From an uncultured Propionivibrio sp. (GTDB lineage Bacteria > Pseudomonadota > Gammaproteobacteria > Burkholderiales > Rhodocyclaceae): a stretch of 64,000 bases of DNA. Under the pieces are notes generated by a model. It had not been told where the DNA came from. It saw only the letters and a program-made list of their open reading frames with translations, and did no database searches. The stretch lies in contig NZ_OY762656.1 of NCBI RefSeq assembly GCF_963666255.1, forward strand, positions 62,001 through 126,000, read 5' to 3'. How positions within the stretch are numbered: position 1 is the first letter of the stretch; each line of letters starts with the position of its first letter. A program made the position numbers and the translations under genes. Below are positions 30,212 through 62,478 of the stretch, one piece after another.

Positions 30212-33121
30212 TCAGCTTTTTGACGTGGGCTGAGTCAAGACAGCCACCAGATCTCCTGACTGGATTGTCGATGGAGTACCGCCCCCCGTTGCCAGCGGCA
30301 TGGCCGACAACGACGGCGAACCGAGCTTGTACTGGGCAATTGCGTTGGCCAGCAAAGCGGTCTGGGTTGACGAGGCAGTACTATCAACGGAGAGCGTCGA
30401 GGTAGTGCTCACCGAAGTAGTGTTTGCATAGTTGCCAATCGCGTTCGCCAGAGCGCTGCTATTTTGGGCAAGCGTGGTCCGGAACCAGACATCGGCCATC
30501 GCGTGCTCGGTGCCGTCTGTCGTTTCATAAGTGGAGCTGAGGCCAACCAGGTTGCCCGCATTAACTTCACTGCTCGCGACCGCATTGAGATTCAACTGGG
30601 TGATGCCAAGATCTTGAAGCGATTTCAATTCGCCGGCATCGGTTTCTCCGTCGCTGTCCTGGTCCACCCAGACCTGCAAGGATGACCAAGCAGAATCTTG
30701 CGCATTCAGCAGCCCATCACCGTTCGCATCGAGTTCGCCAAGTGCCTCGTACCCGTTGCTGGCCGTACTGCCGTCAGCAAGAAGAGTCGCAGTACCGAAC
30801 AACTCCGTGCCATCGTTGATGATGCCATCGTGATTTCGATCCAGAACGAGAAGACCGTCGCCTCCGGTTATCCAGCCCGTCGTCAGTTTTTCCCCGGTTG
30901 CAGAAATATCAAACTGAACGCCCGCCGTATAGCTTTGCGTCGTGATGCCATCACCGTTCAGATCAAGAACGATGGGGGAAACATAGGGCTGAATGACAGC
31001 GAGTTGATCTGCTGAAAGTGCTGCTTGTTGCGTCGTCGTCAGCGCCATGATCTGGTCGGTGGAAAGCGCAGCAAGCTGTTGCGTCGTCAGTGCTTGCAGG
31101 TCGGTAGTCTCGATAGCCTGCAACTGATCACTGGAGAGCGCCACCACCTGCGCCGTCGTCAGCGCGCCAACCTGTGCGCTGCTCAGTGCGACAATGTCAT
31201 CGGTGCTGAGCACCTGGAGCTGGCTCGACGAGAGTGCCGCCGTGGCCTCGGTCGACAGGCTGCTGATCTGACTGGTCGTCAGGACCGCAACCTGATCGCT
31301 GCCCAAGGCCAGAACCTGCATCGTCGTCAACGCTGCGACATCCCCGGTTTCGATGGCCTGCAGCTGATCACTGGAGAGCGCCACCACCTGCGCTGTCGTC
31401 AGCGCGCCAACCTGTGCGCTGCTCAGCGCGACAATGTCATCGGTGCTGAGCACCTGGATCTGGCTCGACGAGAGTGCCGCCGTGGCCTCGGTCGACAGGC
31501 TGCTGATCTGACTGGTCGTCAGGACCGCAACCTGATCGCTGCTCAGTGCTTTCACCTGCGCCGTCGTCAGTGCCGCAATATCTCCCGTTTCGATGGCCTG
31601 CAACTGATCACTGGAGAGCGCCACCACCTGCGCCGTCGTCAGCGCGCCAACCTGTGCGCTGCTCAGCGCGACAATGTCATCGGTGCTGAGCACCTGGAGC
31701 TGGCTCGACGAGAGTGCCGCCGTGGCCTCGGTCGACAGGCTGCTGATCTGACTGGTCGTCAGGACCGCAACCTGATCGCTGCCCAAGGCCAGAACCTGCA
31801 TCGTCGTCAGTGCCGCAATATCTCCCGTTTCGATAGCCTGCAGCTGATCACTGGAGAGCGCCACCACCTGCGCCGTCGTCAGCGCGCCGACCTGTGCGCT
31901 GCTCAGCGCGACAATGTCATCGGTGCTGAGCACCTGGAGCTGGCTCGACGAGAGTGCCGCTGTGGCCTCGGTCGACAGGGCGCCAATCTGTCCGGTCGTC
32001 AGGACCGCAACCTGATCGCTGCCCAAGGCCAGAACCTGCATCGTCGTTAACGCTGCGACATCCCCGGTTTCGATGGCCTGCAGCTGATCACTGGAGAGCG
32101 CCACCACCTGCGCCGTCGTCAGCGCGCCAACCTGAGCGCTGCTCAGTGCGACAATGTCATCGGTGCTGAGCACCTGGAGCTGGCTCGACGAGAGTGCCGC
32201 CGTGGCCTCGGTCGACAGGCTGCTGATCTGACTGGTCGTCAGGACCGCAACCTGATCGCTGCCCAAGGCCAGAACCTGCATCGTCGTCAGCGCGCCAACC
32301 TGTGCGCTGCTCAGTGCGACAATGTCATCGGTGCTGAGCACCTGGAGCTGGCTCGACGAGAGTGCCGCTGTGGCCTCGGTCGACAGGCTGCTGATCTGAC
32401 TGGTCGTCATGACCGCAACCTGATCGCTGCTCAGTGCTTGCACCTGCGCCGTCGTCAGTGCCGCAATATCTCCCGTTTCGATGGCCTGCAGTTGATCACT
32501 GGAGAGCGCCACCACCTGCGCCGTCGTCAGCGCGCCAACCTGAGCGCTGCTCAGCGCGACAATGTCATCGGTGCTGAGCATCTGGAGCTGGCTCGACGAG
32601 AGTGCCGCCGTGGCCTCGGTCGACAGGCTGCTGATCTGACTGGTCGTCAGGACCGCAACCTGATCGCTGCCCAGCGCCAGAACCTGCGCAGAGGTCAGCG
32701 CCCCGATATCCGCAGTTTCGATCACCGCAATCTGCGCGCTGTTCAACACACCAAGTTGCGCTGTGGTCAGAACATGGACCTGCGCCGTCGTGAGTGCCGG
32801 AATCTGACTTGTGTTCAGTGCCGAAAATTGACTGGGCCACAAGGCAAGGATCTGGTCCGGCGAAAAATAGGGAATCTGGTCAGTGGTAAGCGCTGAAATC
32901 TGGTCCGTACCCAGAAGGCTGATGTCGCCTGTGGACAAACCGGAAATATCGCTCCCCGACAGCGCTGCAATTTCTGCGGGGGAGAGCGAAGTGATACTGC
33001 GTGCGGCACGAGTGACAGGAGCGGCGGGGCTGGAAGGAATTCTTCCGCCATGTGCGATCCACGACCCCGTCTTGCGAAGTCCGCCAAGTGTGTTTTTGAC
33101 TAACCTTTGTAGAAAATTCAA
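30212..33121 (-). CDS. Octapeptide-repeat protein with C-terminal calcium-loop block, probably secreted
   Basis: A 969-residue protein in three parts. (1) N-terminal 44 residues, basic, no classical signal peptide (MNFLQRLVKNTLGGLRKTGS). (2) Residues 45-708: 83 consecutive octapeptides with consensus xL[ST][ST]xQ[VI]x, for example ALTTAQVV, ALSSDQLQ, VLTTSQIS, without a break in register. (3) Residues 709-969: DLNGDGITT, DRNHDGIIND, DANGDGLLN and DQDSDGETD, four DxNxDG-type calcium loops as in type-I-secreted RTX-like proteins. No other start codon than TTG 33121 fits; GGGG lies upstream at modest spacing. Absence of a Sec signal plus the calcium block suggest type I secretion; the operon at 53-60 kb is a candidate exporter. 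No family name is offered for the octapeptides. Confidence 0.8.
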   Translation of the reverse strand: MNFLQRLVKNTLGGLRKTGSWIAHGGRIPSSPAAPVTRAARSITSLSPAEIAALSGSDISGLSTGDISLLGTDQISALTTDQIPYFSPDQILALWPSQFSALNTSQIPALTTAQVHVLTTAQLGVLNSAQIAVIETADIGALTSAQVLALGSDQVAVLTTSQISSLSTEATAALSSSQLQMLSTDDIVALSSAQVGALTTAQVVALSSDQLQAIETGDIAALTTAQVQALSSDQVAVMTTSQISSLSTEATAALSSSQLQVLSTDDIVALSSAQVGALTTMQVLALGSDQVAVLTTSQISSLSTEATAALSSSQLQVLSTDDIVALSSAQVGALTTAQVVALSSDQLQAIETGDVAALTTMQVLALGSDQVAVLTTGQIGALSTEATAALSSSQLQVLSTDDIVALSSAQVGALTTAQVVALSSDQLQAIETGDIAALTTMQVLALGSDQVAVLTTSQISSLSTEATAALSSSQLQVLSTDDIVALSSAQVGALTTAQVVALSSDQLQAIETGDIAALTTAQVKALSSDQVAVLTTSQISSLSTEATAALSSSQIQVLSTDDIVALSSAQVGALTTAQVVALSSDQLQAIETGDVAALTTMQVLALGSDQVAVLTTSQISSLSTEATAALSSSQLQVLSTDDIVALSSAQVGALTTAQVVALSSDQLQAIETTDLQALTTQQLAALSTDQIMALTTTQQAALSADQLAVIQPYVSPIVLDLNGDGITTQSYTAGVQFDISATGEKLTTGWITGGDGLLVLDRNHDGIINDGTELFGTATLLADGSTASNGYEALGELDANGDGLLNAQDSAWSSLQVWVDQDSDGETDAGELKSLQDLGITQLNLNAVASSEVNAGNLVGLSSTYETTDGTEHAMADVWFRTTLAQNSSALANAIGNYANTTSVSTTSTLSVDSTASSTQTALLANAIAQYKLGSPSLSAMPLATGGGTPSTIQSGDLVAVLTQPTSKS
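31100..32690 (-). repeat. Nested in-frame tandem repeats (24-bp units in 240-bp super-repeats)
   Basis: The marker ACAATGTCAT ends at 31200, 31440, 31680, 31920, 32160, 32328 and 32568. Spacing is therefore 240 bp except one copy of 168 bp, which is shorter by exactly 72 bp (three 24-bp units). Each 240-bp unit encodes ten octapeptides. Near-identity of copies implies recent expansion or gene conversion. It is coding throughout. Confidence 0.93.
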
Positions 33122-46990: not shown

Positions 46991-47194
46991 TGGCGATCGA
47001 CAATTGAAAAGTGGGTCGTTCCGACACCACGAAACCTGACAACGCCGGATCGTCCGGCAGCGAGGACACAACGGCGAATTGTCATCGCAAAGCAAAACCT
47101 GTCATTGGACTATCATGCACATGAGCATATGATGATAGAGCAGGCACAGGCACGTGACTCGCATCATCGCAGGACCGGTACGGCAGACTCGACC

Positions 47195-50100
47195 ATGGAT
47201 TCCGGCACACCTCTCTCGCAGACACTTCCACCACCGGCCAACCCGAGGCCTTTTCAACGCTGGGTACTGCTGGTCATCGCGGTAGCCAACCTTGTCGCCT
47301 GGTGTCTCGGCGCACACGAAATCGTCGTCAGTCGCCAGCGCACGATCGAGCATATCCAGACTGTCACGACCAACCTCGTCGAACTGCTCGAATCGAACAT
47401 TTCCGAATCGGCCCGTACTATCGACCTGGCCTTGCAGAACATCGTCGATTCGCTTGAACATGCGGGAAGCGAAAACTCCGATTCATACATCGAGTCGCTG
47501 CTCTCCCGCCAACTGGCCCGACACCCGGAGGTCGACGCGTTCCGCGTCAGCGACGCCGGGGGCAACGTACTCTGGGGGAAAGGCGTCGTCCGCTCGAAAC
47601 CCGCCTCCTATGCCGACCGCGACTTCTTCAGGGCACACCGGAAACAACCAGGCCTGCGACTGATCATCACCGAACCGATCGTCGGCCGGGTGTCGAATAT
47701 GCAGGTCGTCGCTTTTACCCGCTCCTATCGCACGGTCAATGGCACCTTGGCGGGTGTCGTGTCGGCCGCCGTTCCTGTGCAGCACTTCACCGATCTTCTC
47801 TCGCGACTCGATCTCGGCCCGAACGGCACAGCGCTGATGCGCCAACTCGACAACGCCCTGCTGACGCGTTTTCCGCCGGTCGACGGGACAGCGGGAGAGA
47901 CCGGAGCCCGAGCATCTCCCGACGAAATAAGGAGACTGATCGACGCCGGCAAGGATAGCGGCGTATTCCATCTCGACCCGGCACCGGACGGCATCGAGCG
48001 TCACTACGCCTTCAAGCGGGTACGCGCCATGCCGGCCGTCGTCGCCATCGGCGCCGCCCCCGTCGACACACTCGCCGAATGGCGCCGCGACACTGCCACA
48101 ACCATCGGTCTGCTCACCGCTTTGCTGATCGCCAGCGCCTTCGCCGCCTGGATCGACCAACGCTACTGGCAGCGATACAGGCAGGATGCCGAATCCATAC
48201 GGCGCAGTCATATGCGCTTCAAGGCCATCATCGATGCCTCGCCCGTTCCGCTAGCACTCAACGATGCAGATAGACGCATTGCCTATATCAATCCTGCTTT
48301 CATAAAAACCTTCGGCTATCAACTTACCGACATCCCGCGACTCGAAGACTGGTGGACAAAAGCCTACCCGGACACCGCATATCGCGCCGAAATCATGGGC
48401 GAATGGCAAGAGCGCGTCGCCAATGCCATCGACACCGGACAACCATTCGACGACTTTCTCACCCGCATCATCTGCAAGGACGGCAGTCAACGTTTCGTGC
48501 TCTGCTCGGCTGCTCACCTGCCGGAACGGGACGACACGCTCCTCGTCGTCCTCTATGACATTACCGAACGCAGGCACGCCGAAGCCACCCTGCTATCGGT
48601 GATGGAAGCCGCCAACGATGCCATCATCGTGACGGATCCGGGGGGCCTCATTACCCACTGGAACAATGCAGCTGCGGAGATCTTCGGCTATTCGGCCGAA
48701 GAAGCCATCGGCAAAAATCTCCATACACTGGTCGTTCCGCCCCGCTATCTCGACGCCCATCGCGCCGCATTCCCAGGCTTCCAGAGAACCGGCACCGGTG
48801 CCGCCGTCGGGCGCTCCATGGAGCTTCAGGCGTATCGCAAGGACGGGCGTGAAATCGCCGTCGAAGTCTCGCTTGCCTCCGTCCGCCTGCGCGACGGATT
48901 TCATGCCATCGGTATTGTCCGCGACATCACGGAACGCAAACAGACCGAGAGCGAACTCAAGCAATTCGCCGCGATCGTCCAGTCGTCCGATGACGCGATC
49001 ATCGGAAAGACGCTCTCGGGCGTCGTCACCAGCTGGAACCCCGGCGCGGAAGCCGTTTTCGGCTACAGCGCCGAAGAGATGATCGGCCGACCGATGCTGG
49101 ATGTCTTCCTCCCAGCGCTGAAAAACGAAGAAGCGATCATCCTCGACCATATCAAACGCGGGGAGTCGGTTACCCACTTCGAAACCCTGCGGCGACGCAA
49201 GGATGGCCAGGTGATCAACGTATCGGTCAGCATCTCGCCAGTTCGCGACAACGATGGGAGCATTGTCGGCGTATCAACGATTGCCCGCGACATCAGCGAC
49301 AAGAAACAGGCTGAGGTCGAACTCGAACGGCATCGCTTCCACCTCGAGGAACTGGTAACGGACCGCACCGCCGAGCTCGATCGCGCCAACAAAGCACTCT
49401 CCCTGGCAAAAGATCAGGCAGAAAATGCCAATCGCGCAAAGAGCATATTCCTGTCGAACATGAGCCACGAAATTCGCACGCCGATGAATGCCATCTTCGG
49501 TATGGTTCATCTGCTGCGGCGCAGCGAGCTCACGCGATCACAGCAGGAGCGTGTCGACAAGATCGATACCGCCTCCCGGCATCTCCTGAATGTCATAAAT
49601 GACGTCCTCGATCTCTCCAAGATCGAGGCCGACAAACTGGAGTTGCAGAACGAGCCGGTATCAATACCCGCATTGCTCGACAGCATTCAAAGCATTCTGA
49701 TCGACTCCGCACAAAAACGCGACAACACCCTGCGCATCGAGTCCGATCCATTCCCCGATGTATTGCTGGGCGATACCACGCGACTGCAGCAGGCATTGCT
49801 CAACTATGCCACCAACGCACTCAAATTCACCGACGGCGGCCTGGTGACGATCCGGGCAAGGCGCATCAGCGAATCAACGCGATCCGTCATCATTCGTTTC
49901 GAAGTCGAGGACAATGGAATCGGCATCCCGGCGGAGACCGTCCCACGTCTTTTCAATTCCTTCGAACAGGCCGACGGATCGACGACACGCAAGTACGGAG
50001 GCACAGGTCTCGGGCTCGCCATCACACGTCGTCTGGCCGAACTGATGAAGGGCGACGTCGGCGTCCGCAGCACGCCCGGCGTGGGCAGCACCTTCTGGTT

Positions 50101-50566
50101 CACCGCCTGCCTGGACAAGGGCGACACATCCGATCTTACGGCCACGAGAACCAGCAGCGATGCCGAACGGCATCTGCGCGAACGTCATATCGGCTCATTC
50201 ATACTCGTCGTCGATGATGAGCCGACCAATCGCGAGGTGGCACGCGACTTTCTCGAATCCGCCGGACTGGTCGTCGATATTGCCGAAGACGGGGAAAAAG
50301 CCGTCAGCATGGCGAAAAACACCAACTACGATCTTATTCTGATGGATATGCAGATGCCGAAGGTCGACGGTCTCGAAGCGACGCAACAGATCCGCAAGAA
50401 CGCCTCGGGTGGTCACATTCCGATTCTCGCGATGACCGCCAATGCCTTCGCCGAAGGCAGAAGCAGGTGTTTCGCTGCCGGCATGGACGATTTCATCGCC
50501 AAACCCTTCAAGCCCGAGCATCTGTTCGCCTGCGTACTCAAATGGCTGGACGGGAGACTGCAGTAG
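47195..50566 (+). CDS. Hybrid sensor histidine kinase with dCACHE-like sensor, three PAS and a receiver
   Basis: A 1123-residue membrane kinase. TM1 is at about 23-40; a ~260-residue periplasmic region of the dCACHE type ([38 protein letters not shown]) follows; TM2 is at about 304-320. Three PAS domains (about 336-458, 466-582, 588-705) precede HisKA ([20 protein letters not shown], His ~758) and HATPase ([19 protein letters not shown]). The C-terminal receiver has its phosphoacceptor Asp in LILMDMQMP (~1049). No response regulator partner is adjacent. The open frame also contains starts at 47105 (TTG) and 47129 (ATG); ATG 47195 gives a short cytosolic N-terminus and is my choice. Confidence 0.88.
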
Positions 50567-50921: not shown

Positions 50922-51053
50922 ACGCCCGCCAAACGCGGTGGCGAATTATAGCTTATCATCGGTGCTTCGTGCGCCGTCCGGCCGGCGTAGAATGTTCCGG
51001 CGACGGCAACCAACGCTGTTGCGCACGTTACGACCGACCCCTTGCCCACGACC

Positions 51054-52859
51054 ATGCCGATGTCCAAACCCAGCTCCCCCGCCGAAATCGCCCGCGAAAC
51101 GCTCAAGTTGCTGATGACAAGGCGCATGGCACCAACGCCGGACAACTACAGGGCAATCTACGGCGAGATCGCCGGCGAGACGGAAAAGGCTGACGAGGCC
51201 TTTCCGGAAAAGGAACTGCGGACGCTGCTCGGCGCGCTGCCGAAAGAGATTCCGCAACAACAGCGACTGGCCCGTGAACTCGAGCAGGCGATCAGGAACA
51301 GGGACTGGAACGAGTGGCGCAAGACGTTCGCCGACTATGTCGCTGAGCAAGGCGCCGAAGCGAGCCGGAGATGGGGCGAACTGATCGGCGACCTCATGCG
51401 ACAGTGGGAGGCAAAACAGGCCAACATCACCGCAGCCCGCAAGCGCGAATCGCTGGAGCATATCCTGGCAAGCGCTTCAAGCAACAGCGACCTGCTCTTC
51501 GAACGGCTGCAGCGACTGGTCAGATCGTGGGCGACCAGTTGGGGGGAGGGCGGCGAGATCGATCTTGTCGAGGGAGACCTTCTCCCCCCGGAAGACAGCG
51601 CCCCCCAATCGCTTCGCGCTCCCGGCAGCAACACCGTCGCGACGCCGAGCCGCGCCAGCGAGCTTCTGCCGGAACTACGCGAGACTTTCGCCTTTGCCCT
51701 CGAAGCCGCTGTCATCGGCCAATTGAGGGACGAACCCGCACTTGCCGCCGAGGCACGCAATCTGGTCGTCATGGTGAGAAATGCCAACACGCTGCAAGCG
51801 GCGCAGGAACTGCTTGCCGCGGTCAAACGCCTGGCATATCGACTGGAATTCGTCGCCGAAGACCGGGAAGAACTCCGCAGCGGACTCCTCAAGCTGCTGC
51901 AGATCATGATCGAAAACGTCAGCGAACTCGTTGTCGATGACCGCTGGCTCAACGGCCAGATCGCCATCGTCCGCGACATCGTCGCCCGTCCGATGAACAT
52001 CCGCGCCATTAACGACGCGGAACATCGCATCAAAGAAGTCATCTTCAAGCAAAGCCAACTCAAGCACAGCCTCGTCGAGGCCCGCGAGGCACTGAAGACC
52101 ATGCTTGCCGGATTCGTTGACCACCTGGCGGATTTCGCCGGATCGACCTCTGACTATCACGACAAGATCGAACACTGCGTAGAGAAAATCAGTAAGGCCA
52201 ATGACATTTCCCAGCTGGAAAGCGTCCTCTCGGAAGTCATTGATGCCACACGCATCATCCAGCTCAGCACCCAGCGCTCGCGCGATGATCTGAACGCGAG
52301 CCGGCAGCGGGTCGAGGATGCCGAACGAAGGATCCATGAACTGCAGGAAGAACTGGACCGCGCCAGCACGCTGGTGCGCCATGACCAACTGACCGGTACC
52401 CTCAATCGACGCGGGCTCGAAGAAGCATTCGACGGTGAGTTCGCGCGTTCGCGGCGGCGCAATGCGCCGCTCTGCATGGCACTCCTCGATATCGACAATT
52501 TCAAGAAGCTCAACGACTCGCTCGGCCACGATGCTGGCGATGCGGCATTGATCCATCTGGCCACGACGATCCGCGACACCTTGCGCCCGCAAGACACCGT
52601 CGCCCGCTTTGGCGGCGAGGAATTCATCATCCTGCTGCCCGACACAGCAATCACCGACGCGGAAAAGGCACTCGTCCGGCTGCAACGCGAATTGACCAAA
52701 CGCTTCTTCCTGCATGACAACGAGAAGGTGCTCATCACCTTCAGCGCCGGCATTACCGACTTCCGCCCGGACGACACCCAAACAACGATCACCAAACGTG
52801 CCGACGAAGCGATGTATACCGCCAAGAAGACCGGCAAGAACCGCGTCGTGATCGGATAA
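51054..52859 (+). CDS. Diguanylate cyclase (GGDEF)
   Basis: A ~601-residue cytosolic protein. The first ~380 residues are largely helical without membrane segments (starts MPMSKPSSPAEIARETLKLL). A coiled coil (about 395-435) precedes a GGDEF domain with the active site ARFGGEEFIILLPD (GGEEF, ~521) and an intact product-inhibition site RPQD five residues before it. It makes cyclic di-GMP. Start uncertain between 51042, 51054 and 51060. The N-terminal part is not recognised, but resembles the helical regulatory domain seen ahead of some DGCs. Confidence 0.9.
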   Translation: MPMSKPSSPAEIARETLKLLMTRRMAPTPDNYRAIYGEIAGETEKADEAFPEKELRTLLGALPKEIPQQQRLARELEQAIRNRDWNEWRKTFADYVAEQGAEASRRWGELIGDLMRQWEAKQANITAARKRESLEHILASASSNSDLLFERLQRLVRSWATSWGEGGEIDLVEGDLLPPEDSAPQSLRAPGSNTVATPSRASELLPELRETFAFALEAAVIGQLRDEPALAAEARNLVVMVRNANTLQAAQELLAAVKRLAYRLEFVAEDREELRSGLLKLLQIMIENVSELVVDDRWLNGQIAIVRDIVARPMNIRAINDAEHRIKEVIFKQSQLKHSLVEAREALKTMLAGFVDHLADFAGSTSDYHDKIEHCVEKISKANDISQLESVLSEVIDATRIIQLSTQRSRDDLNASRQRVEDAERRIHELQEELDRASTLVRHDQLTGTLNRRGLEEAFDGEFARSRRRNAPLCMALLDIDNFKKLNDSLGHDAGDAALIHLATTIRDTLRPQDTVARFGGEEFIILLPDTAITDAEKALVRLQRELTKRFFLHDNEKVLITFSAGITDFRPDDTQTTITKRADEAMYTAKKTGKNRVVIG

Positions 52860-52995: not shown

Positions 52996-55900
52996 ATGCG
53001 GGGAAGTCAAGACAACACCACGACGGGGACGTCGAGCCAATCATCCAAGACTGCGAAAGGGCGGCCCGGTCTTTCGCCGCTTGCGTGCGCGATACTGTAC
53101 TCGTTGACGGCCACAGTGCTACCCGGTTGCATGACCAAACGCAGCACCTACGACGTCCCTGAAATCCCGCTCTCGGCAAAATTCCAGAACGACAAAAAAA
53201 CCGACGAAGGCGATACAACATCGTCATCGAAACGTGGCCCCGGCGCCCAAGGCAATGATGACGCCGGCTTTGCCGACTGGTGGCGTTTCTTCGGCAACAG
53301 CGAACTCGAAGGACTGATCAACCGCGGACTGGCGAACAATCCGGACGTGCGCATTGCCACGATCCGGCTTTCGCAAGCAAAAGTACGGAGCGACCAGGCC
53401 ACCGCCGGGTTGTTGCCGAACATCACCGCACCGGCAGTCATCGCCCGCCAAATGCCAGGCGGTTATGTCGGATCGGTTCCGGTCGGCGCCACCGGACGCG
53501 ACGTAACCACTGTGCTCCAGGGAAGCCTGCGCAGCGACTGGCGCGCCGACATCTGGGGCGAACAGAGCGCGCTGCTCGAATCGACCCAGCTGCAACTCTG
53601 GCGCGCCGCCTTCGAGCGCGACAACGTTCAGCGCAACGTCACGGCGGCGATTGCATCGAGCTACATCGAATTCGTCACCCTCAACGACCGCTTGCGCGTG
53701 GCGCAGGAAACCGAGCGCATCCTCAGCAAGACACTGCGCATCACCGAAGATCGGATGAAAATCGGCGACGCGACAGCCGGCGAACTCGAACAGCAACGCG
53801 CCATTGTCTTCGGCCTGCGCGCGTCCATTCCGACCATGGAGCAGCAACGCATCGACGCCATCAATACGTTGGCATTCATGGTCGGCACGGTACCCGGCGC
53901 GCTCAAGCTTTCCGATCAGGGACTGGAGAGCCTGGCCGTCCCGGAGATCGTGCCGGGACTCCCCTCTTCGCTGCTACTGCGCCGCCCCGACGTCAAGATG
54001 GCCGAAGCCCGGTTGCTGTCGGCCGATGCCGATATCGATGTCGCACGCGCCCGCATCCTGCCGCCGCTCGATCTCACCACGCAGGCCGGCTACAGCGCCA
54101 ATTACCTGGCCCAGTTCTTCCAGCCGCAGCAGTTCTTCTGGACGGCCATCGCCAACCTGACGACGAGCATCTTCGACGGCGGACGTCGCCGGGGCGAGAA
54201 GAAATTTGCCGAAGCCGTCTATGAGGAGATGGTCGAAACCTATGCGCGGACAATCTACCAGGCGATCCGCGAAGTCGAGAGTGCGCTCGCCTCGGTCAAT
54301 CTCGCCAACAAACGACTGCAAGCACAACAGGATGCCGCGACGGCGGCCAGGCGCGGCTGGGAGCTGAACCTCAAGGCATTCTCGATGGGCGGCGTCGACC
54401 AAACGACGCTGCTTGATTCCGAGCGAAATTACCATCGCATGCTCGACGAATACCAGCGCTCGCAGATGGAGCAATACCGGGGATACATTTCCCTCTTCCA
54501 GGCGCTCGGTGGCGGCGTTCGACCCGCCGGCACGATTCCGGGAGAAGGACGGAGGCCGGGGATCGCCAACGATGGCCCCGGCGTTTCGGGCGGAGCCGGT
54601 CGCGCCGCGGCGCCGCTCGCCGCTCGCCAATCGGATGGCATGGATTGGCAGTTGAGCGGTACCGCGGCACCGGGAGGCGCTCAGATCGAAAAGTTCTGGC
54701 AGATCGAACTTCCCGGGCTATATCACCGCACCACCGTTGGCGCCGCATGGCGCGACCTGCGTGACCGCTACCCGCAATTGATGTCGGGACGGATCGTGCG
54801 ACCGCGGCTGAGCGGAAAGATTGACGACAGTGGAGAAGGCGGACAGGAAGCCTGGTATCGCCTGTACATCGCCAAGTTCGACGACGAAAACGAGGCGCAA
54901 AAATTCTGCGATGCCATGCTGGCGGTCCAGGAACGTTGTCGCGTCGTCTCGTCTCAAGGCGACGAAAAGCGCGTCGACAAGAAAATCCCGTTGGCGCAAC
55001 CGCCGATCGCCGGACAGGGTACGAGCAACGATGCGGCCACGACGCCGACTGAGCCCGCCCGCCCGCCCGCTTCGACAGCGGCAGCCGAGACCGAACCCAA
55101 GCACGCCCCCAGCACCACCGCCGTCACCGCGCAACCGGCAAGCAGCGGCTATGCCGTGCAGTTCGGCATTTTCTCGAATCTCGAAAACGCAGCGATTTCG
55201 AGCGCGGCCTGGCAATCCCGGGGGTATGACACGTACGTCGTCAGAACGAAAAATGCCGCCGGCAACGAATGGTATGCGGTACGCACGGGCGCCTACCGGC
55301 AACAAAGCGAAGGCGCCGACATCGCCAGGGAAATCCGCAGCAAGGAGGACGCACCTGCGGTCCTCGTCCAGACGCCGCTGAACGACGACGGCTCGCCCGA
55401 AAAGATGGCGCCCGCCGAACTCGCCAATGCCACTGCATCGACGCCGGAAACCGCAACAGAAGCCGAACTCCGGCCGGAACTTCCGGAAGCCACCCCCAGC
55501 GGCGTCGCCGACGTCATCAATGTGCCGTTGATCAGGAAGAGCCCGTCAAGGGCAGGCGAAAAAGCCCGGTTCGCCGTACAACTCGGCGCGTTCTCCAACC
55601 AGCAGAACGCGCAAATGGCGCTTGAATTCTGGCGCGCGCGCGGTTTCGCGCCCTATCTCGTCAACCTGACTGACAGTCAGGGACATGGCTGGCTCGCCGT
55701 TCGCAGCGGCGAATTCCGCAACCGGCGTGAAGCGTCGGCACTGGCACTGCAACTCGGGCGCAAGGAAAAGATCTCGGCGCTTGTCGTCGCCTACCGGCCT
55801 GAAAGCACGGTCGCATTACCGGCAGCGCCCGCGACAACGCCTAGCGAACCGGTCAAGGTGGCGGAACCTCCCGCCGAAACACCCGCGCCTCTCAGACCCG

Positions 55901-56445
55901 AAGAGAAATCCGCCGAGTCGGCGACGACAAAAACCGCGCCCGCAGAAGCGCCGGCGCCGACCCCGACGCCTGCCACACCAGCCGCGGCGGCAACGTCTCC
56001 AACGACAGAAACGACCAGCGCCGAACCTGAGAGCGTCGTAGCCGAACCTTCCATGCCAACGCCGCCCTCAAAGAAAGGTGTCGCTGCGCGAAAAGTGTCG
56101 AAGCCACGCTTCTCCGTTCAACTCGGCGCTTTTGCGACCATCGAGAACGCCGCCGCGTCCTATGCCGAATGGATCAACCGCGGTTATGCCGCCTATGTCT
56201 GCGAGATGGCCGACCGGCTTGGCAAGCTGCGTTTCGCCGTCCGGGTCGGCGAGCACACCCGCCGCCTGGAAGGCCTGAGCCAGGCGCGCAGCATCCACCG
56301 CCGGTCCGGCACCCATGCCGTTGTCGTTCCGGCCCTGCTCGACGAACAAGGTAAGCTGGCGACAATCGACGTCGCCCCTTTGCTGAACGCGACGGAAATT
56401 TCCGTCCGGCCTCTTTCTGAACAGGCAAACCCACATGCCCGATAA
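52996..56445 (+). CDS. TolC/NodT-type outer-membrane factor fused to four SPOR domains
   Basis: A 1149-residue lipoprotein. The signal ends TATVLPGC (lipidated Cys ~45). Residues about 80-505 are an outer-membrane efflux protein: WWRFFGNSELEGLINRGLAN, LPNITAPAVIARQ, LLLRRPDVKMAEARLLSADA and EVESALASVNLANKRL are two repeats of the OEP fold. Then come SPOR modules near residues 618-660 (WYRLYIAKFDDENEAQKFC), 717-792 (YAVQFGIFSNLENA), 858-933 (FAVQLGAFSNQQNA) and 1038-1111 (FSVQLGAFATIENA), joined by Pro/Thr/Ala-rich linkers. SPOR domains bind denuded septal peptidoglycan. The fusion is in one uninterrupted frame. It overlaps the ABC transporter by 11 nt. Start: ATG 52996; an upstream ATG at 52924 is possible. 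Confidence 0.88.
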   Translation: MRGSQDNTTTGTSSQSSKTAKGRPGLSPLACAILYSLTATVLPGCMTKRSTYDVPEIPLSAKFQNDKKTDEGDTTSSSKRGPGAQGNDDAGFADWWRFFGNSELEGLINRGLANNPDVRIATIRLSQAKVRSDQATAGLLPNITAPAVIARQMPGGYVGSVPVGATGRDVTTVLQGSLRSDWRADIWGEQSALLESTQLQLWRAAFERDNVQRNVTAAIASSYIEFVTLNDRLRVAQETERILSKTLRITEDRMKIGDATAGELEQQRAIVFGLRASIPTMEQQRIDAINTLAFMVGTVPGALKLSDQGLESLAVPEIVPGLPSSLLLRRPDVKMAEARLLSADADIDVARARILPPLDLTTQAGYSANYLAQFFQPQQFFWTAIANLTTSIFDGGRRRGEKKFAEAVYEEMVETYARTIYQAIREVESALASVNLANKRLQAQQDAATAARRGWELNLKAFSMGGVDQTTLLDSERNYHRMLDEYQRSQMEQYRGYISLFQALGGGVRPAGTIPGEGRRPGIANDGPGVSGGAGRAAAPLAARQSDGMDWQLSGTAAPGGAQIEKFWQIELPGLYHRTTVGAAWRDLRDRYPQLMSGRIVRPRLSGKIDDSGEGGQEAWYRLYIAKFDDENEAQKFCDAMLAVQERCRVVSSQGDEKRVDKKIPLAQPPIAGQGTSNDAATTPTEPARPPASTAAAETEPKHAPSTTAVTAQPASSGYAVQFGIFSNLENAAISSAAWQSRGYDTYVVRTKNAAGNEWYAVRTGAYRQQSEGADIAREIRSKEDAPAVLVQTPLNDDGSPEKMAPAELANATASTPETATEAELRPELPEATPSGVADVINVPLIRKSPSRAGEKARFAVQLGAFSNQQNAQMALEFWRARGFAPYLVNLTDSQGHGWLAVRSGEFRNRREASALALQLGRKEKISALVVAYRPESTVALPAAPATTPSEPVKVAEPPAETPAPLRPEEKSAESATTKTAPAEAPAPTPTPATPAAAATSPTTETTSAEPESVVAEPSMPTPPSKKGVAARKVSKPRFSVQLGAFATIENAAASYAEWINRGYAAYVCEMADRLGKLRFAVRVGEHTRRLEGLSQARSIHRRSGTHAVVVPALLDEQGKLATIDVAPLLNATEISVRPLSEQANPHAR

Positions 56446-58579
56446 GCCCTCCCATACCGTCGTGCAGTGCCTGTCGGCCATTGCCCAGCATCACGGCCTG
56501 GCCGTCAATCCCGAGCGCCTGATCCACGACTACGCACTGGGCGACACGGAACCGGAAGAATCGCTGATCCTGCGCATGGCGACCGAAATTGGCCTGAAGG
56601 CCAAGGCCGACCGGCTGACCTGGGACGGCATCTTCTCGCAGGGCGGCGTTTTCCCGATCCTGGCGTTGCTGAAAGACGGCAAGGCCGTCATCCTGGTCGG
56701 TCTGAGAACCGAGGAAGAAACGAAGAAAGTCGCGATCCTCGACCCTGGCGCCGACATGGGCGACATCAAGCAGTACGACCAGGCCGCGCTCGAGGCCCTC
56801 TGGGACGGCCACGTGGTATTCCTGAAGCGCGTCCACGCACTGACCGATCTCAACCAGCCGTTCAGCCTGCGCTGGTTCGTACCGGAAATCCTGAAGCAGA
56901 AATCGGCGTTCCGCGACATCGCCATCGCGGCCATGGCGATGAACATCCTGGCACTGGCCTCGCCGATGTTCTTCCAGGCGGTGATCGACAAGGTGCTGGT
57001 GCATCAGACCTCGACCACGCTCTGGGTGCTGACTGCTGGCGTCATCCTCGCGCTCCTGTTCGACGCGGGCTTTGGCTACCTGCGGCAGTTCATGCTGCTG
57101 GCTGCAACCAACAAGATCGACATGCAACTCACCCGGCGCGTGTTCGGGAAGCTGCTGTCACTGCCGATCGACTATTTCGAGATGGCCTCCGCCGGTGTCA
57201 TCACCCGCCACATGCAGCAGCTCGAGAGCATCCGCAACTTCCTGACCGGACGACTGTTCTTCACGGTGCTCGACACCGGCTCGCTGATCATCTTCTTCCC
57301 GCTGCTCTTTGCCTACTCGTTCAAGTTGGCGCTGATCGTTCTTGGATTCACCGGGTTGATCGCCGCGATCATCGCCGGCCTGCTACCGACCTACCGACGC
57401 CGGCTGGACGCGCTCTACTCGGCCGAGGGCAAGCGCCAGTCGCTGCTCGTCGAAACGATCCACGGCATGCGCACGGTCAAGGCACTGGCGATCGAGCCGA
57501 TGCAACGACGACTGTGGGACCAGTATTCCGCCGAAGCGATCACGACGCATTTCCGGTTGGGCCAGTTGACGATCTCCGGCGGCACGATCACTGATCTGCT
57601 CGGCAAGCTGATGCCGATCATCATCATCCTGATCGGAACCCAGGACGTCTTCGACCAGACGATGACCGTCGGTGTGCTGATCGCTTTCCAGATGCTCTCC
57701 GGACGCGTCGTCGGCCCGCTGATCCAGCTGGTCAGCCTGATCAACGAGTACCAGCAGACGGCGCTGTCGGTACGCATGCTCGGCGAGGTCATGAACCGCC
57801 CTTCCGAAGGCAAGGGCGGCGCGGCGGGGCTGCGACCACAGCTTAATGGCGAGATCACTTTCGACAACGTCACCTTCCGTTACCCCGGATCGAGCAACAC
57901 CGCGCTCGACGGCGCGAAATTCACGATCCAGCCCGGCTCGGTGATCGGCATCGTCGGCCGCAGTGGTTCGGGCAAAACAACGCTGACCAAGCTGATCCAG
58001 GGGTTGTACCCGGTCCAGGAAGGGATCATCCGATTCGACGGGATCGACGCCCGCGAAATCGACCTCGCCCACCTGCGGCGCCAGGTCGGCGTGGTGCTGC
58101 AGGAGAACTTCCTGTTCCGCGGCAGCGTCCGTGACAATATCGCGATGACCAAGCCGGATGCTTCGTTCGACGAGATCGTCGCCGCCACACGCGCCGCCGG
58201 CGCCGACGAATTCATCGAACGGCTGCCACAGGGCTACGACACGATTCTCGAGGAAAACGCCTCGAACCTCAGCGGCGGGCAGAAGCAGCGGCTGTCGATC
58301 GCACGCTCGTTGCTCGCCAAGCCGCGCGTGCTGATCCTCGACGAGGCGGCGAGCGCGCTCGATCCGGAAAGCGAGGCGATCTTCATCAACAATCTGTCGC
58401 AAATCGCCATCGGTAAAACCGTCATCATGATCTCCCACCGGCTCTCGACGCTGGTCGATTCCGACGCGATTCTCGTCATGCAGCGCGGACGTCTTGCGGA
58501 CTGCGGGCGGCACGAGGAGCTGCTCGATCGCTGCGAGACCTATCAACAACTCTGGAACCAGCAAACGAGCCACCTGTGA
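56435..58579 (+). CDS. Type I secretion ABC exporter with C39-like domain
   Basis: A 714-residue HlyB/LapB-type exporter. The N-terminal ~130 residues are a C39-like domain (HTVVQCLSAIAQHHGLAVNP) in which the catalytic Cys position reads Thr, so it should recognise rather than cleave the substrate. The membrane domain is about 150-420. The NBD has Walker A GRSGSGKTT (~508), signature LSGGQKQR (~612), Walker B VLILDEAAS (~632) and SHRLST H-loop (~668). It overlaps its neighbours on both sides. It exports unfolded proteins with a C-terminal secretion signal. Confidence 0.93.
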   Translation: MPDKPSHTVVQCLSAIAQHHGLAVNPERLIHDYALGDTEPEESLILRMATEIGLKAKADRLTWDGIFSQGGVFPILALLKDGKAVILVGLRTEEETKKVAILDPGADMGDIKQYDQAALEALWDGHVVFLKRVHALTDLNQPFSLRWFVPEILKQKSAFRDIAIAAMAMNILALASPMFFQAVIDKVLVHQTSTTLWVLTAGVILALLFDAGFGYLRQFMLLAATNKIDMQLTRRVFGKLLSLPIDYFEMASAGVITRHMQQLESIRNFLTGRLFFTVLDTGSLIIFFPLLFAYSFKLALIVLGFTGLIAAIIAGLLPTYRRRLDALYSAEGKRQSLLVETIHGMRTVKALAIEPMQRRLWDQYSAEAITTHFRLGQLTISGGTITDLLGKLMPIIIILIGTQDVFDQTMTVGVLIAFQMLSGRVVGPLIQLVSLINEYQQTALSVRMLGEVMNRPSEGKGGAAGLRPQLNGEITFDNVTFRYPGSSNTALDGAKFTIQPGSVIGIVGRSGSGKTTLTKLIQGLYPVQEGIIRFDGIDAREIDLAHLRRQVGVVLQENFLFRGSVRDNIAMTKPDASFDEIVAATRAAGADEFIERLPQGYDTILEENASNLSGGQKQRLSIARSLLAKPRVLILDEAASALDPESEAIFINNLSQIAIGKTVIMISHRLSTLVDSDAILVMQRGRLADCGRHEELLDRCETYQQLWNQQTSHL

Positions 58580-59919
58580 TCTTCAACAGAAAAAAGCCGC
58601 AAGAGGCACAGACCGCCCTCGATTTCCTGCCTGACGCAGACGAAATCGAGCGCCGGCCGCTTCCCCGCCAGGCCCGGATCACGCTGCATGTGCTGGCAGT
58701 GGCCGTCATCGTTTTCCTGGCCTGGGCAAGCCTGTCCGAAACCGACCTGATCGTCACCGCCCGCGGACGCCTGGTCACCCCGCTGCCGAACGTCGTGGTC
58801 CAGCCGCTCGACACCGCGATCATCCAGACAATTGACGTCCGTCCCGGACAGGTCGTCAAGAAAGGCGAACGCCTGGCGACCCTCGACCCGACCTTTACCG
58901 AAGCCGACGAAGCGCAGCTGCGCAGCCGGCGGCACAGCCTCGACACGCAGGTCGACCGACTCGAACACGAACTCTCGGGCAAGCCGCTCAAGCCCGCCAA
59001 AACCACAGACCCTGACACGCTGCTGCAGAACCGCCTGGCCGAAGAACGGCGGGCCAACTTCAACGCCCAGAGCCGCCGGCTCGACGAGTCGATCTCCCGC
59101 CTCAAGGCAGCGATCGAGACGAACCGCGCCGAGCAGCAGAGTATCGGCGCGCGCGTCGGCGTACTGCGCGAAATGGAAGCGATGCAGTCGGCGCTCGTTG
59201 AACAGCGGCTCGCGATACGCGCCCGGATGCTTGACGCGCAAGACCGCCTGCTCGAAGCGGAGCGGTCGTTGCAGACCGCGCAGAACCGCGCCAACGAACT
59301 GCGCAAGGAACTCGGATCGCTGGAGGCGGAAAAAACATCGTTCGAAACCGGCTGGCGACAGAAGGCGATGGAAGAACTGCTGAGCGTCACGCGCGAGCGC
59401 GACACGGTCAACGAGCAGTTGCTCAAGGCCGACAAGCGCAATCAGCTCGTCACGCTGGTATCTCCGGTCGACGCGGTCGTGCTGGAAGTCGCCAAGCTCT
59501 CGCCGGGGTCGGTTGCAAGAGCGACCGAGCCTGTGTTCACGCTCGTCCCGCTGAGCTCGGAGCTTGAAGCCGAAGTCAAGGTCGACGCGGCCGACATCGG
59601 TTACATCAAGGTCGGCGACGAAGCGCATATCAAGCTCGATGCCTACCCATTCCAACGGCATGGCGGATTGAGCGGCCAGCTGCGTACGATCAGCGAGGAT
59701 GCGTTCCGGCGCGAATCCGACCCCAGTGCGGGAATGGAAGCCTTTTACACCACGCGGATCCGCCTGACGACCACGCGCCTGCGGACAATGCCAGAACACG
59801 CGCGGCTGTTGCCAGGCATGACGCTGAGCGCGGAAATTGTCGTCGGCAAGCGCTCCGTCATGTCTTATATGGTGTGGCCGTTGATCCGCGCACTCAACGA
59901 ATCGATCCGCGAACCGTAA
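58576..59919 (+). CDS. HlyD-family membrane fusion protein
   Basis: A 447-residue periplasmic adaptor. A single TM lies at about 34-52 (LHVLAVAVIVFLAWASLSE). Two long coiled-coil arms (about 110-290) join a lipoyl/barrel-sandwich domain (VIQTIDVRPGQVVKKGERLA, SPVDAVVLEVAKLSPGSVAR), ending in the beta-barrel RLLPGMTLSAEIVVGKRSV. GTG 58576 overlaps the ABC stop. It links the exporter to the SPOR-fused outer-membrane factor. Confidence 0.92.
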   Translation: MIFNRKKPQEAQTALDFLPDADEIERRPLPRQARITLHVLAVAVIVFLAWASLSETDLIVTARGRLVTPLPNVVVQPLDTAIIQTIDVRPGQVVKKGERLATLDPTFTEADEAQLRSRRHSLDTQVDRLEHELSGKPLKPAKTTDPDTLLQNRLAEERRANFNAQSRRLDESISRLKAAIETNRAEQQSIGARVGVLREMEAMQSALVEQRLAIRARMLDAQDRLLEAERSLQTAQNRANELRKELGSLEAEKTSFETGWRQKAMEELLSVTRERDTVNEQLLKADKRNQLVTLVSPVDAVVLEVAKLSPGSVARATEPVFTLVPLSSELEAEVKVDAADIGYIKVGDEAHIKLDAYPFQRHGGLSGQLRTISEDAFRRESDPSAGMEAFYTTRIRLTTTRLRTMPEHARLLPGMTLSAEIVVGKRSVMSYMVWPLIRALNESIREP

Positions 59920-59946: not shown

Positions 59947-62478
59947 GTGGCCGAACAACAAAACAAGGATATCTTTCGCTTTCGCGAAACGCATCGTTCC
60001 GCCGACCTCGGCGATCCGGGCGCGCAGTTCAACCTCGGCCTGATGTATGCGAACGGCGTGGGCACCGAGCAGGATTTCAACAAGGCGCTCTTCTGGTATC
60101 GCAAGGCTGCGGACAAAGGCGTGCCGGCGGCCCAGTACATCCTCGCCGGGAAATATGCTAACGGCCAGGGCGTCGGGCAGGATCTGCGACAGGCGCTCTC
60201 CTGGTATCTGAAAGCCTCGAACCAGGGTTATTCGCGCGCCATTTTCCGGCTGGGCCAGTTCCTCGCCGAACCGCACGAGGCTTTCGCCGAGGAGTGCTTC
60301 AGGCAGGCAGCCGAGAAGGGGCTGCCGGAAGCGCAGGTGGCGGTCGCCGAAAAAATTGCCGGACAACCTGGCGAAGCGGCAAGTGAAGCCGATGCCGACA
60401 AGGCGCTGGCGCTGTTCCTGAAAGCGGCGGAGGGCGGAAGCGCCAACGCCCAATACGTCGTCGGCAGTTACTACGAGAGCGGCCGGATCGACGGGGCCGC
60501 GGATCTGCAGACAGCGATCGCCTGGTACCGGAAAGCTGCCCGCCAGGGCTTTGCCGCGGCGCAGGCAAGGCTTGGCATGATGTACGCTCACGGCGAAGGC
60601 CTTGCGAAGGACAACCGGCAGGCGCACGCCTGGTTTTCCCGCGCCGCCGAGCAGGGAGACGGCTTCGCCCAGTACCAGCTGGCGCAGATGCTCGAACACG
60701 GCGCCGGCATTGAGGCAGACCCGACGCTCGCCGAAGCCTGGTACCTGAAAGCCGCCGAGCAGGGCATCGTCGAGGCGCAACTGCGCATGGCGAAATTGCG
60801 CGAAGGCGTAAATGACGAGGAGTCGGCGTGCTGGTTCCGCCTCGCCGCAGAAGCCGGCAATGCGCAGGCGATGCTGATGCTGGGCAGCCTGTATGCCGAA
60901 GGCTGCGGCGTCGAACGCAGTTTCGAGCGGGCGCTGTCCTGCCTGCTCGCCGCCGCCGGACAGAACGAGCCAGCTGCCTACCAGGCGCTCGCGGAATGGA
61001 TCGACCGCGAGGGACTGGAACTGACGACGTCCTGGTACCGGAAGGCCGCCGAGCATTCCGTCGTCGACGCCCAGTACGAACTCGCCAACCGACTGATGCG
61101 TGGCCGCGGGACGAAGGAAGACAAATTCGAAGCCGCGTCGTGGTATCTCAAGGCGGCTGAAGGCGGCCTCGCCGAAGCGGAATTTGCGCTCGGTGAAATT
61201 TTCATGGCCAAGGACGCCGACCCGGAAGCGATCGGCGAAGCCACCCACTGGTTCCGCGCAGCGGCAAAAAAGGGCTTTGCCCCGGCCCAGACAGCGCTCG
61301 GCAACCTGTACGCACAAGGGATCGGCGTTCCCAAGGATCATCGCCAAGCCGCGATGTGGTGGCAGAAAGCGGCCGAACAGGGCAATGTCGATGCCCAGTT
61401 CTATCTCGGGCAACTGTATGAACGGGGGCTGTCCGTTCCCGTCGACAAGGCTCACGCCGAACGCTGGTACCGGCGCGCGGCCGAACAGGGAAACGATGAG
61501 CGCGCCATCGTGGCGCTGGCCCAGTTGTATCGCAAGTCGCAACACCGCAAGGCGGAATCGCTGTTGCGCCGGGCCGCCGAGCGTCATTTGCCGCAAGCGC
61601 AATACGACCTCGCCATGCTGCTCGAAGACAAGTCCAATGGCGAGATGAGCGCCGAGAGCCTGTCCTTCCTGCTGCTGGCCGCAGGGCAAGGGCACACCGA
61701 AGCGCTCAGGACGCTGCTTGAATACCTGCAACGCCCGGAGAACCCGCTTGCCGCGCTTCTCAAGGCGATGGGCGGCGCTGCGCCGGGACCCGCCAAACCG
61801 GAACACGGACAGCGTCCGCTCGCTGCACGACGGCGGGCACTGGGCGTGACGATCGGCCCGGCCATGCCCGACCGCTCCGAACACGCACAATTACTCGAGG
61901 AGGCTGGGCGCGGCACGCCGGAAGCGCTGTGGGCACTCGGCTCTCGGCTCGTCAAGGGCGAAGGAGGACTTCCCCGCGACCTCGAAAAGGCGCACGAATA
62001 TTTCCGCCAGGCAGCCCAGTCCGGGCATGCCGCTGCCCAGGCGGCGCTGGCCGTCATGCTCTCCTCCGGAAAGGGCTGCCCCCAGGACAGCAGGGAAGCG
62101 GTCTTCTGGTGGACAAAAGCCGCCGAGCAGGGCGATGCCGAGTCGCAGTACAACCTCGGGTTGATGTACGAGAAAGGCGTGGGCGTCGCCGCCGATATCG
62201 TTCAGGCGGAGACCTGGATGCGCAAGGCGGCCGAGCAAGGCGTCGTCATTGCGCAAATCCGTCTCGGCCTGTTTCACGCGATGGGCCGGCTTGGAAAGCC
62301 GGATCTTGTCGAGGCATACGCCTGGTTTGCGCTTGCCGCGCGCAGCGGGAATGAGGCGGCGCTGGCCAATCGCGAACATGCAGAATCCATGCTGTCGCCG
62401 CAGGATCTTCGCGAAGGACGGCGGCGGGCCGAGCAGATTTACAAGAGATTGCCGGGTTCGCGCGGCACCGCCGCTTGA
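59947..62478 (+). CDS. Sel1-like repeat protein (843 aa)
   Basis: About 18 Sel1-like repeats of ~36 residues in tandem, for example AQFNLGLMYANGVGTEQDFN followed by KALFWYRKAADKG, and AQYNLGLMYEKGVGVAADIV near the end. No signal peptide or membrane segment (MAEQQNKDIFRFRETH). Sel1 proteins scaffold protein complexes. It follows hlyD by 27 bp, with GAGG before GTG 59947, and is probably the last gene of the secretion operon. A cytosolic helper or substrate-docking role is inference. Confidence 0.85.
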   Translation: MAEQQNKDIFRFRETHRSADLGDPGAQFNLGLMYANGVGTEQDFNKALFWYRKAADKGVPAAQYILAGKYANGQGVGQDLRQALSWYLKASNQGYSRAIFRLGQFLAEPHEAFAEECFRQAAEKGLPEAQVAVAEKIAGQPGEAASEADADKALALFLKAAEGGSANAQYVVGSYYESGRIDGAADLQTAIAWYRKAARQGFAAAQARLGMMYAHGEGLAKDNRQAHAWFSRAAEQGDGFAQYQLAQMLEHGAGIEADPTLAEAWYLKAAEQGIVEAQLRMAKLREGVNDEESACWFRLAAEAGNAQAMLMLGSLYAEGCGVERSFERALSCLLAAAGQNEPAAYQALAEWIDREGLELTTSWYRKAAEHSVVDAQYELANRLMRGRGTKEDKFEAASWYLKAAEGGLAEAEFALGEIFMAKDADPEAIGEATHWFRAAAKKGFAPAQTALGNLYAQGIGVPKDHRQAAMWWQKAAEQGNVDAQFYLGQLYERGLSVPVDKAHAERWYRRAAEQGNDERAIVALAQLYRKSQHRKAESLLRRAAERHLPQAQYDLAMLLEDKSNGEMSAESLSFLLLAAGQGHTEALRTLLEYLQRPENPLAALLKAMGGAAPGPAKPEHGQRPLAARRRALGVTIGPAMPDRSEHAQLLEEAGRGTPEALWALGSRLVKGEGGLPRDLEKAHEYFRQAAQSGHAAAQAALAVMLSSGKGCPQDSREAVFWWTKAAEQGDAESQYNLGLMYEKGVGVAADIVQAETWMRKAAEQGVVIAQIRLGLFHAMGRLGKPDLVEAYAWFALAARSGNEAALANREHAESMLSPQDLREGRRRAEQIYKRLPGSRGTAA

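Follow-up and report, generated by a model that had tools for sequence, protein, structure and literature searches.

How export channels that span the envelope are accommodated by the peptidoglycan layer is an active question, as seen in the excerpted account of the Escherichia coli TolC-YbjP pair (PMC13082787). In that excerpt, a TolC-family channel near the wall is accompanied by a lipid anchor, YbjP, which is a separate lipoprotein and may not bind peptidoglycan avidly. The nearest printed idea that we found is SiiA of Salmonella SPI-4, a type I system with a giant adhesin as cargo; the available part of PMC12607715 presents SiiA as a separate peptidoglycan-binding subunit of the Mot/Exb/Tol type, located in the inner membrane. 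SPOR domains (PF05036) bind preferentially to stripped glycan, and septa are enriched in it; the SPOR septal proteins treated in the excerpt of PMC6895207 are division proteins or wall enzymes. The same excerpt reports that Q270 of RlpA contacts glycan and that the matching Gln of FtsN and DamX is required for septal localization.

The locus described here carries modules of this kind on an export channel. It lies in a 64,000-nucleotide stretch of DNA from an uncultured Propionivibrio sp. (the window), in which a single open frame of 1149 codons without a stop (52996..56445, +) encodes a SPOR-armed outer-membrane channel lipoprotein of 1149 aa. NodT channels, type I-like ABC/HlyD pairs, and SPOR domains are each known singly; their combination was not found in the open-access literature, nor was any paper on an OMF/SPOR fusion. 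The protein shares with NodT/OprM/CusC-type factors (TIGR01845, PF02321) the lipobox, the OEP domain, the NodT model, and the predicted fold, but it differs from them by a C-terminal extension of ~640 residues, consisting of a module that we call M (module 1) and three ordinary SPOR modules (2-4), and by adjoining ABC and HlyD genes. As in HlyB/HlyD/TolC type I secretion, a HlyB-like ABC transporter with a C39-like domain, a HlyD protein, and a channel are encoded in one operon; here, however, the channel is NodT-type rather than TolC-type, it bears the wall-binding-type modules, and an extra Sel1 gene is present. In contrast to SiiA, which has another fold, the putative wall-binding part sits on the outer-membrane channel itself. 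Modules 2-4 share with FtsN, DamX, RlpA, and CwlC both the passing of the Pfam SPOR model and the glycan-contacting Gln, which M lacks.

The protein starts with a lipoprotein-type signal (residues 1-45; 52996..53130, +) containing the lipobox LPGC, the Cys45 of which is invariant across 27 aligned proteins. The NodT-type outer-membrane channel follows (residues 93-507; 53272..54516, +; PF02321 E 7.9e-43). It passed the NodT model TIGR01845 (284.2 bits vs a cut-off of 210.05) and failed the type I TolC model TIGR01844 (75.2 bits vs a cut-off of 225.15), as did the family channels that were scanned (5/5 pass TIGR01845, 0/5 pass TIGR01844). When the whole protein was scanned with Pfam, SPOR was found with an E value of 1.9e-27 in four stretches. 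The fusion of a channel to SPOR modules, which had been proposed from the letters of the frame and its translation, was thus borne out by the HMM search, OEP (PF02321) and SPOR (PF05036) both being found in one conserved frame that is under purifying selection. The predicted structure consists of a channel fold, matching OprN, OprM, and CusC, and four separate modules on disordered linkers; the CwlC-SPOR structure also matches the full-length predicted model.

The linkers between the modules are rich in Ala, Pro, Thr, and Glu. They are found at residues 657-717 (54964..55146, +; pLDDT <50 at 657-714; dN/dS 0.316), 795-856 (55378..55563, +; pLDDT <50 at 813-854; dN/dS 0.246), and 935-1036 (55798..56103, +; pLDDT <50 at 939-1033; dN/dS 0.356). 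In a comparison of the window with Propionivibrio dicarboxylicus, dN/dS was 0.012 for M, which is the most conserved module, 0.062 for the channel, 0.057, 0.076, and 0.096 for SPOR modules 2, 3, and 4, respectively, and 0.17-0.36 for linkers. These ratios indicate that the modules are kept under purifying selection while the linkers drift.

The four modules are not equivalent. Modules 2 (residues 718-794; 55147..55377, +; 36.5 bits; Gln722), 3 (residues 857-934; 55564..55797, +; 45.7 bits; Gln862), and 4 (residues 1037-1114; 56104..56337, +; 22.7 bits; Gln1042) each exceeded the Pfam SPOR cut-off of 21 bits when scanned apart. Gln occupies the position of RlpA Q270 in each of the 23 ordinary SPOR modules compared, which come from nine proteins, and an Arg that possibly matches RlpA R311 by its spacing is likewise present in 23/23. 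Across species, SPOR modules at the same position are more alike (50.7% identity) than those at different positions (39.8%), a positional likeness that was reached by 0/5000 shuffles with seven proteins and 2/5000 with five. As same-position modules are the more similar ones, the pattern fits one ancestral set of three SPORs.

Module M (residues 563-656; 54682..54963, +) reached 16.8 bits when scanned alone, below the same cut-off, and the cut-off was reached in two (L089, L099) of the eight scanned family channels that carry M without ordinary SPOR modules. Its predicted fold is SPOR-like, and direct comparison with modules 2-4 revealed a weak likeness. Trp568, Cys638, and Cys648 are invariant in 41 M modules from 32 proteins, and in 37 of the 41 Glu occupies the strand position that is Gln in SPORs, an equivalence that is a reading of the strand motif. 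Matches to a profile built on M occur in 41 of the 299 phylum genomes searched, one of them the source genome. All eight of the matches checked pass the Pfam SPOR cut-off; eight host proteins were also checked, seven of which share loci with those eight matches, and all have SPOR and none has OEP (one, L156, is cut by the locus end). With module 1 as the sole query, a sample of the class yielded the source genome only (1/274). By profile and predicted fold, module 1 is probably a SPOR relative that has diverged, and the known glycan-binding signature is, on the residues compared, confined to three of the four modules (2-4). The count of four SPOR modules in the sequence-only reading therefore holds for modules 2-4 as ordinary SPORs, and for module 1 as a probable divergent SPOR-like one without the key Gln.

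The channel gene is part of an operon. It overlaps by 11 bases a gene for a HlyB-like ABC transporter with an N-terminal C39-like domain (56435..58579, +; PF00664, PF00005, and PF03412 above cut-off), the best NCBIfam match of which, TIGR01846 (HlyB-type), scored 655.4 bits, under the cut-off of 725.55. This gene overlaps by 4 bases one for a HlyD-type periplasmic adaptor (58576..59919, +; TIGR01843 298.8 bits vs a cut-off of 208.65). After 27 bases comes a Sel1-repeat protein gene (59947..62478, +; PF08238, 14 stretches), probably the fourth gene of the operon. Scans for promoters and terminators gave no excess over shuffles. The order of the genes supports the assignment of the 52996-56445 product as the putative channel component of a secretion operon of type I-like kind. 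The proposal of a type I secretion channel thus stands as regards the HlyB-like ABC and HlyD partners, but the channel itself is of the NodT rather than the type I TolC model.

A scan of genome contigs returned 53 loci, 37 of which (L077-L113) make up the family as counted here. Of the rest, L128 is a fragmentary locus that has a window-type operon, and the other 15 have low identity and match the channel part at most. The family taxa are mostly Betaproteobacteria, some being labeled only as proteobacterium and three being gammaproteobacterial. The copy of P. dicarboxylicus DSM 5885 (L077) is full length with 85% identity, and the fused gene is present in further relatives, which, together with the SPOR matches by HMM, excludes both of the refuting outcomes named in the sequence-only reading. 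M was detected by HMM in a readable frame at 31/37 family loci; at four more (L082, L087, L108, L111) the tblastn alignment runs through M, L101 is cut by the contig end, and L106 is without M. The layout of M plus three ordinary SPORs is found in the window, L077-L081, and L083, and that of M plus one ordinary SPOR in L084 and L085. As many family members carry M only, ordinary SPORs are evidently not essential to the channel family. The family seems to build wall-reading modules into the channel itself, one to four by lineage.

Analysis of the neighboring genes at 38 loci (the 37 and L128) separated two transporter types. A window-type ABC transporter (63-88%) lies by the channel at 16/38 loci; HlyD was found with it at 15 of these 16, L085 ending inside the ABC gene, and the Sel1 gene was detected by tblastn at eight. 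A different ABC transporter (21-28% to the window ABC) is present at 18/38 loci, 17 of which have two ABC stretches in one long frame (L094 ends early), and no ABC was seen at four (L081, L089, L101, L109). Where the second transporter type is the neighbor, the channel carries M once or twice, and no ordinary SPOR was found in it by HMM. Judged by gene neighborhood, the channel family has kept company with two transporter types. For the nearest ABC transporters outside the family (54-55%), no similar channel gene adjoins at two of the three loci fetched, so that these two could not serve as a source of a control channel lacking M. In a tree of the channel part alone (34 of 38 family sequences and four outgroups), the family had a support of 100/99, and all channels of the second transporter type that were placed fall in a group of 19 rows (97/85). 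The deeper forks are open, and thus the order of SPOR gains and losses is not derivable from this tree.

Within the genus, the module was found in 2/28 genomes, and in 2/17 of those with a completeness of 90% or more and a contamination of 5% or less; the SPOR-armed channel system is accessory. Its C-terminal half had no match among 72,556 plasmid records; for the whole protein, none of the records covers 80%, and the 20 matches listed are to the channel part.

The likely cargo of the operon is a group of ALTTAQ-repeat proteins. One is encoded within the window ~20 kb upstream of the operon (30212..33121, -; 969 aa; PF20080, 30 stretches). Its C-terminal part has Asp/Asn-rich LDLNGDGI-like motifs of a kind typical of type I cargo that binds calcium. 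Elsewhere on contig C2 of this genome, a larger ALTTAQ frame lies at 134.6-142 kb, ~10 kb downstream of the operon, and another is found near 557-564 kb, the larger frames reaching up to 2697 and 5207 aa; P. dicarboxylicus also has ALTTAQ genes ~10 kb downstream of its operon. An ALTTAQ gene is found on the operon's contig at five of the 16 window-type loci (L079, L103, L105, L108, L110) and at none of the remaining 37 of the 53 loci; 11 of the 16 are without one, several of these contigs being short.

Co-occurrence was also observed in a sample of 200 genomes of the order, where frames with channel and M were found in four and ALTTAQ in nine, the four all being among the nine; 28 further genomes had matches, with frames of 168-462 aa at the match. 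The probability of this co-occurrence by chance is 1.9e-6, or ~4e-5 without the source genome, shared ancestry being ignored in both values. No channel of this family was detected in five of the nine ALTTAQ genomes, which must either use another exporter or have a channel that the search missed. No paper on ALTTAQ-repeat proteins was found under that term in the open-access literature, and the association with the operon suggests an exporter for them.

We give about even chances to a model in which the protein serves a type I-like system as its outer-membrane channel, with giant ALTTAQ proteins as probable cargo, and its SPOR arms enrich it at the division site and young poles. The lipid-anchored NodT-type channel would form the usual trimer and, as suggested by its fold and the operon, work with the ABC and HlyD proteins of the adjoining genes. 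Each chain would end in M near the channel, followed by three ordinary SPORs on long disordered tethers, so that a trimer would display up to nine glycan-reading SPOR domains and three M modules. Arms leaving the C-terminal end of the channel could reach the wall, as the equatorial zone of TolC is proposed to lie at the peptidoglycan in the excerpt of PMC13082787. The SPOR domains would bind peptide-stripped glycan strands, as the retained Gln and the RlpA complex suggest, and many joint contacts would hold the channel to the wall, enriching it where stripped glycan is made. Such sites would be the division site and the young poles, and export would be concentrated there. With its Glu in place of Gln and its Cys pair, M would more likely be a docking or spacing arm near the channel than a glycan reader; as the module nearest to the channel and the most conserved, it may fix the geometry or dock a partner. 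The parts of this model differ in strength. Modules 2-4 probably bind the wall, and we infer septal localization of the channel. That septal or young-pole enrichment is the main purpose of wall binding falls somewhat short of an even chance, and slightly more doubtful still is the idea that the arms read the state of the wall, recognizing freshly stripped septal glycan, with release of giant ALTTAQ proteins mainly at division sites and new poles. Counting against the model are the missing glycan-binding signature in M, the most conserved module, the many family members with M alone, the failure of the channel to pass the type I TolC model, and the missed HlyB cut-off of the ABC transporter. 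The cargo assignment is weakened by the five ALTTAQ genomes in which no such channel was detected and by the 11 window-type loci, several on short contigs, at which no ALTTAQ gene was seen.

Three other explanations were considered. The arms might anchor the channel to peptidoglycan over the whole cell circumference without favoring the septum, and in this way steady a channel that exports very large proteins. Long tethers with several modules per chain suit anchoring, and the excerpted literature offers parallels in the equatorial zone of TolC, thought to lie near the peptidoglycan with YbjP as a lipoprotein partner there (PMC13082787), and in SiiA, the separate SPI-4 type I subunit that binds peptidoglycan (PMC12607715). 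We nonetheless regard a general anchor as rather unlikely, as the preference of SPORs for stripped glycan enriched at septa, stated in the available text of PMC6895207, means that even a plain anchor should favor division sites.

It is also conceivable, though improbable, that all four modules now contact HlyD, the Sel1 protein, or the cargo without reading glycan. Such docking would agree with M being the most conserved module (dN/dS 0.012), lacking the Gln and keeping its Cys pair, and with the channel family staying with its two transporter types. It does not sit well with the Gln kept in 23/23 copies of the ordinary modules, nor with modules 2-4 sitting on disordered linkers that drift, which differs from what a fixed interface would show. 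To a sequencing error or a read-through joining two genes we attach practically no probability, given the full-length relative at 85% identity, the frame without a stop, and the layout of M plus three SPORs in six other contigs (L077-L081, L083); joined genes were ruled out by the same fusion in relatives. Under the preferred model of wall-reading arms, it becomes directly testable whether a secretion system can be positioned by the chemistry of the wall, and the SPOR arm would be a portable part to try on laboratory channels.

Additional domains were observed in some relatives. Two channels with two M modules (L089:8857-11937, L098:907-4512) have a Csd6-like NTF2 domain (PF24125) between the M modules; it was found in both of the two-M channels scanned with Pfam and is possibly a second wall-related module. 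Large second frames adjoin the channel at two loci (L092:11829-16037, L091:11929-15213), each with an M-like stretch; that of L091 has no Pfam match, and that of L092 contains two PF24125 stretches.

Putative regulatory genes lie near several of these operons. In the window, a gene for a GGDEF diguanylate cyclase (51042..52859, +) is located upstream of the channel gene, and a GGDEF gene is also found at the same place in P. dicarboxylicus (91%); this conserved position hints at c-di-GMP control. A hybrid sensor kinase with PAS, HisKA, and receiver domains, plus a Cache match that stays under its cut-off, is encoded further upstream (47105-50566, +). At two loci with the second transporter type (L088:11127-12752, L096:11549-13423), the channel gene is separated from the double ABC gene by one for a protein with a LuxR-type HTH and an AAA_16 ATPase domain, an odd site for a regulator.
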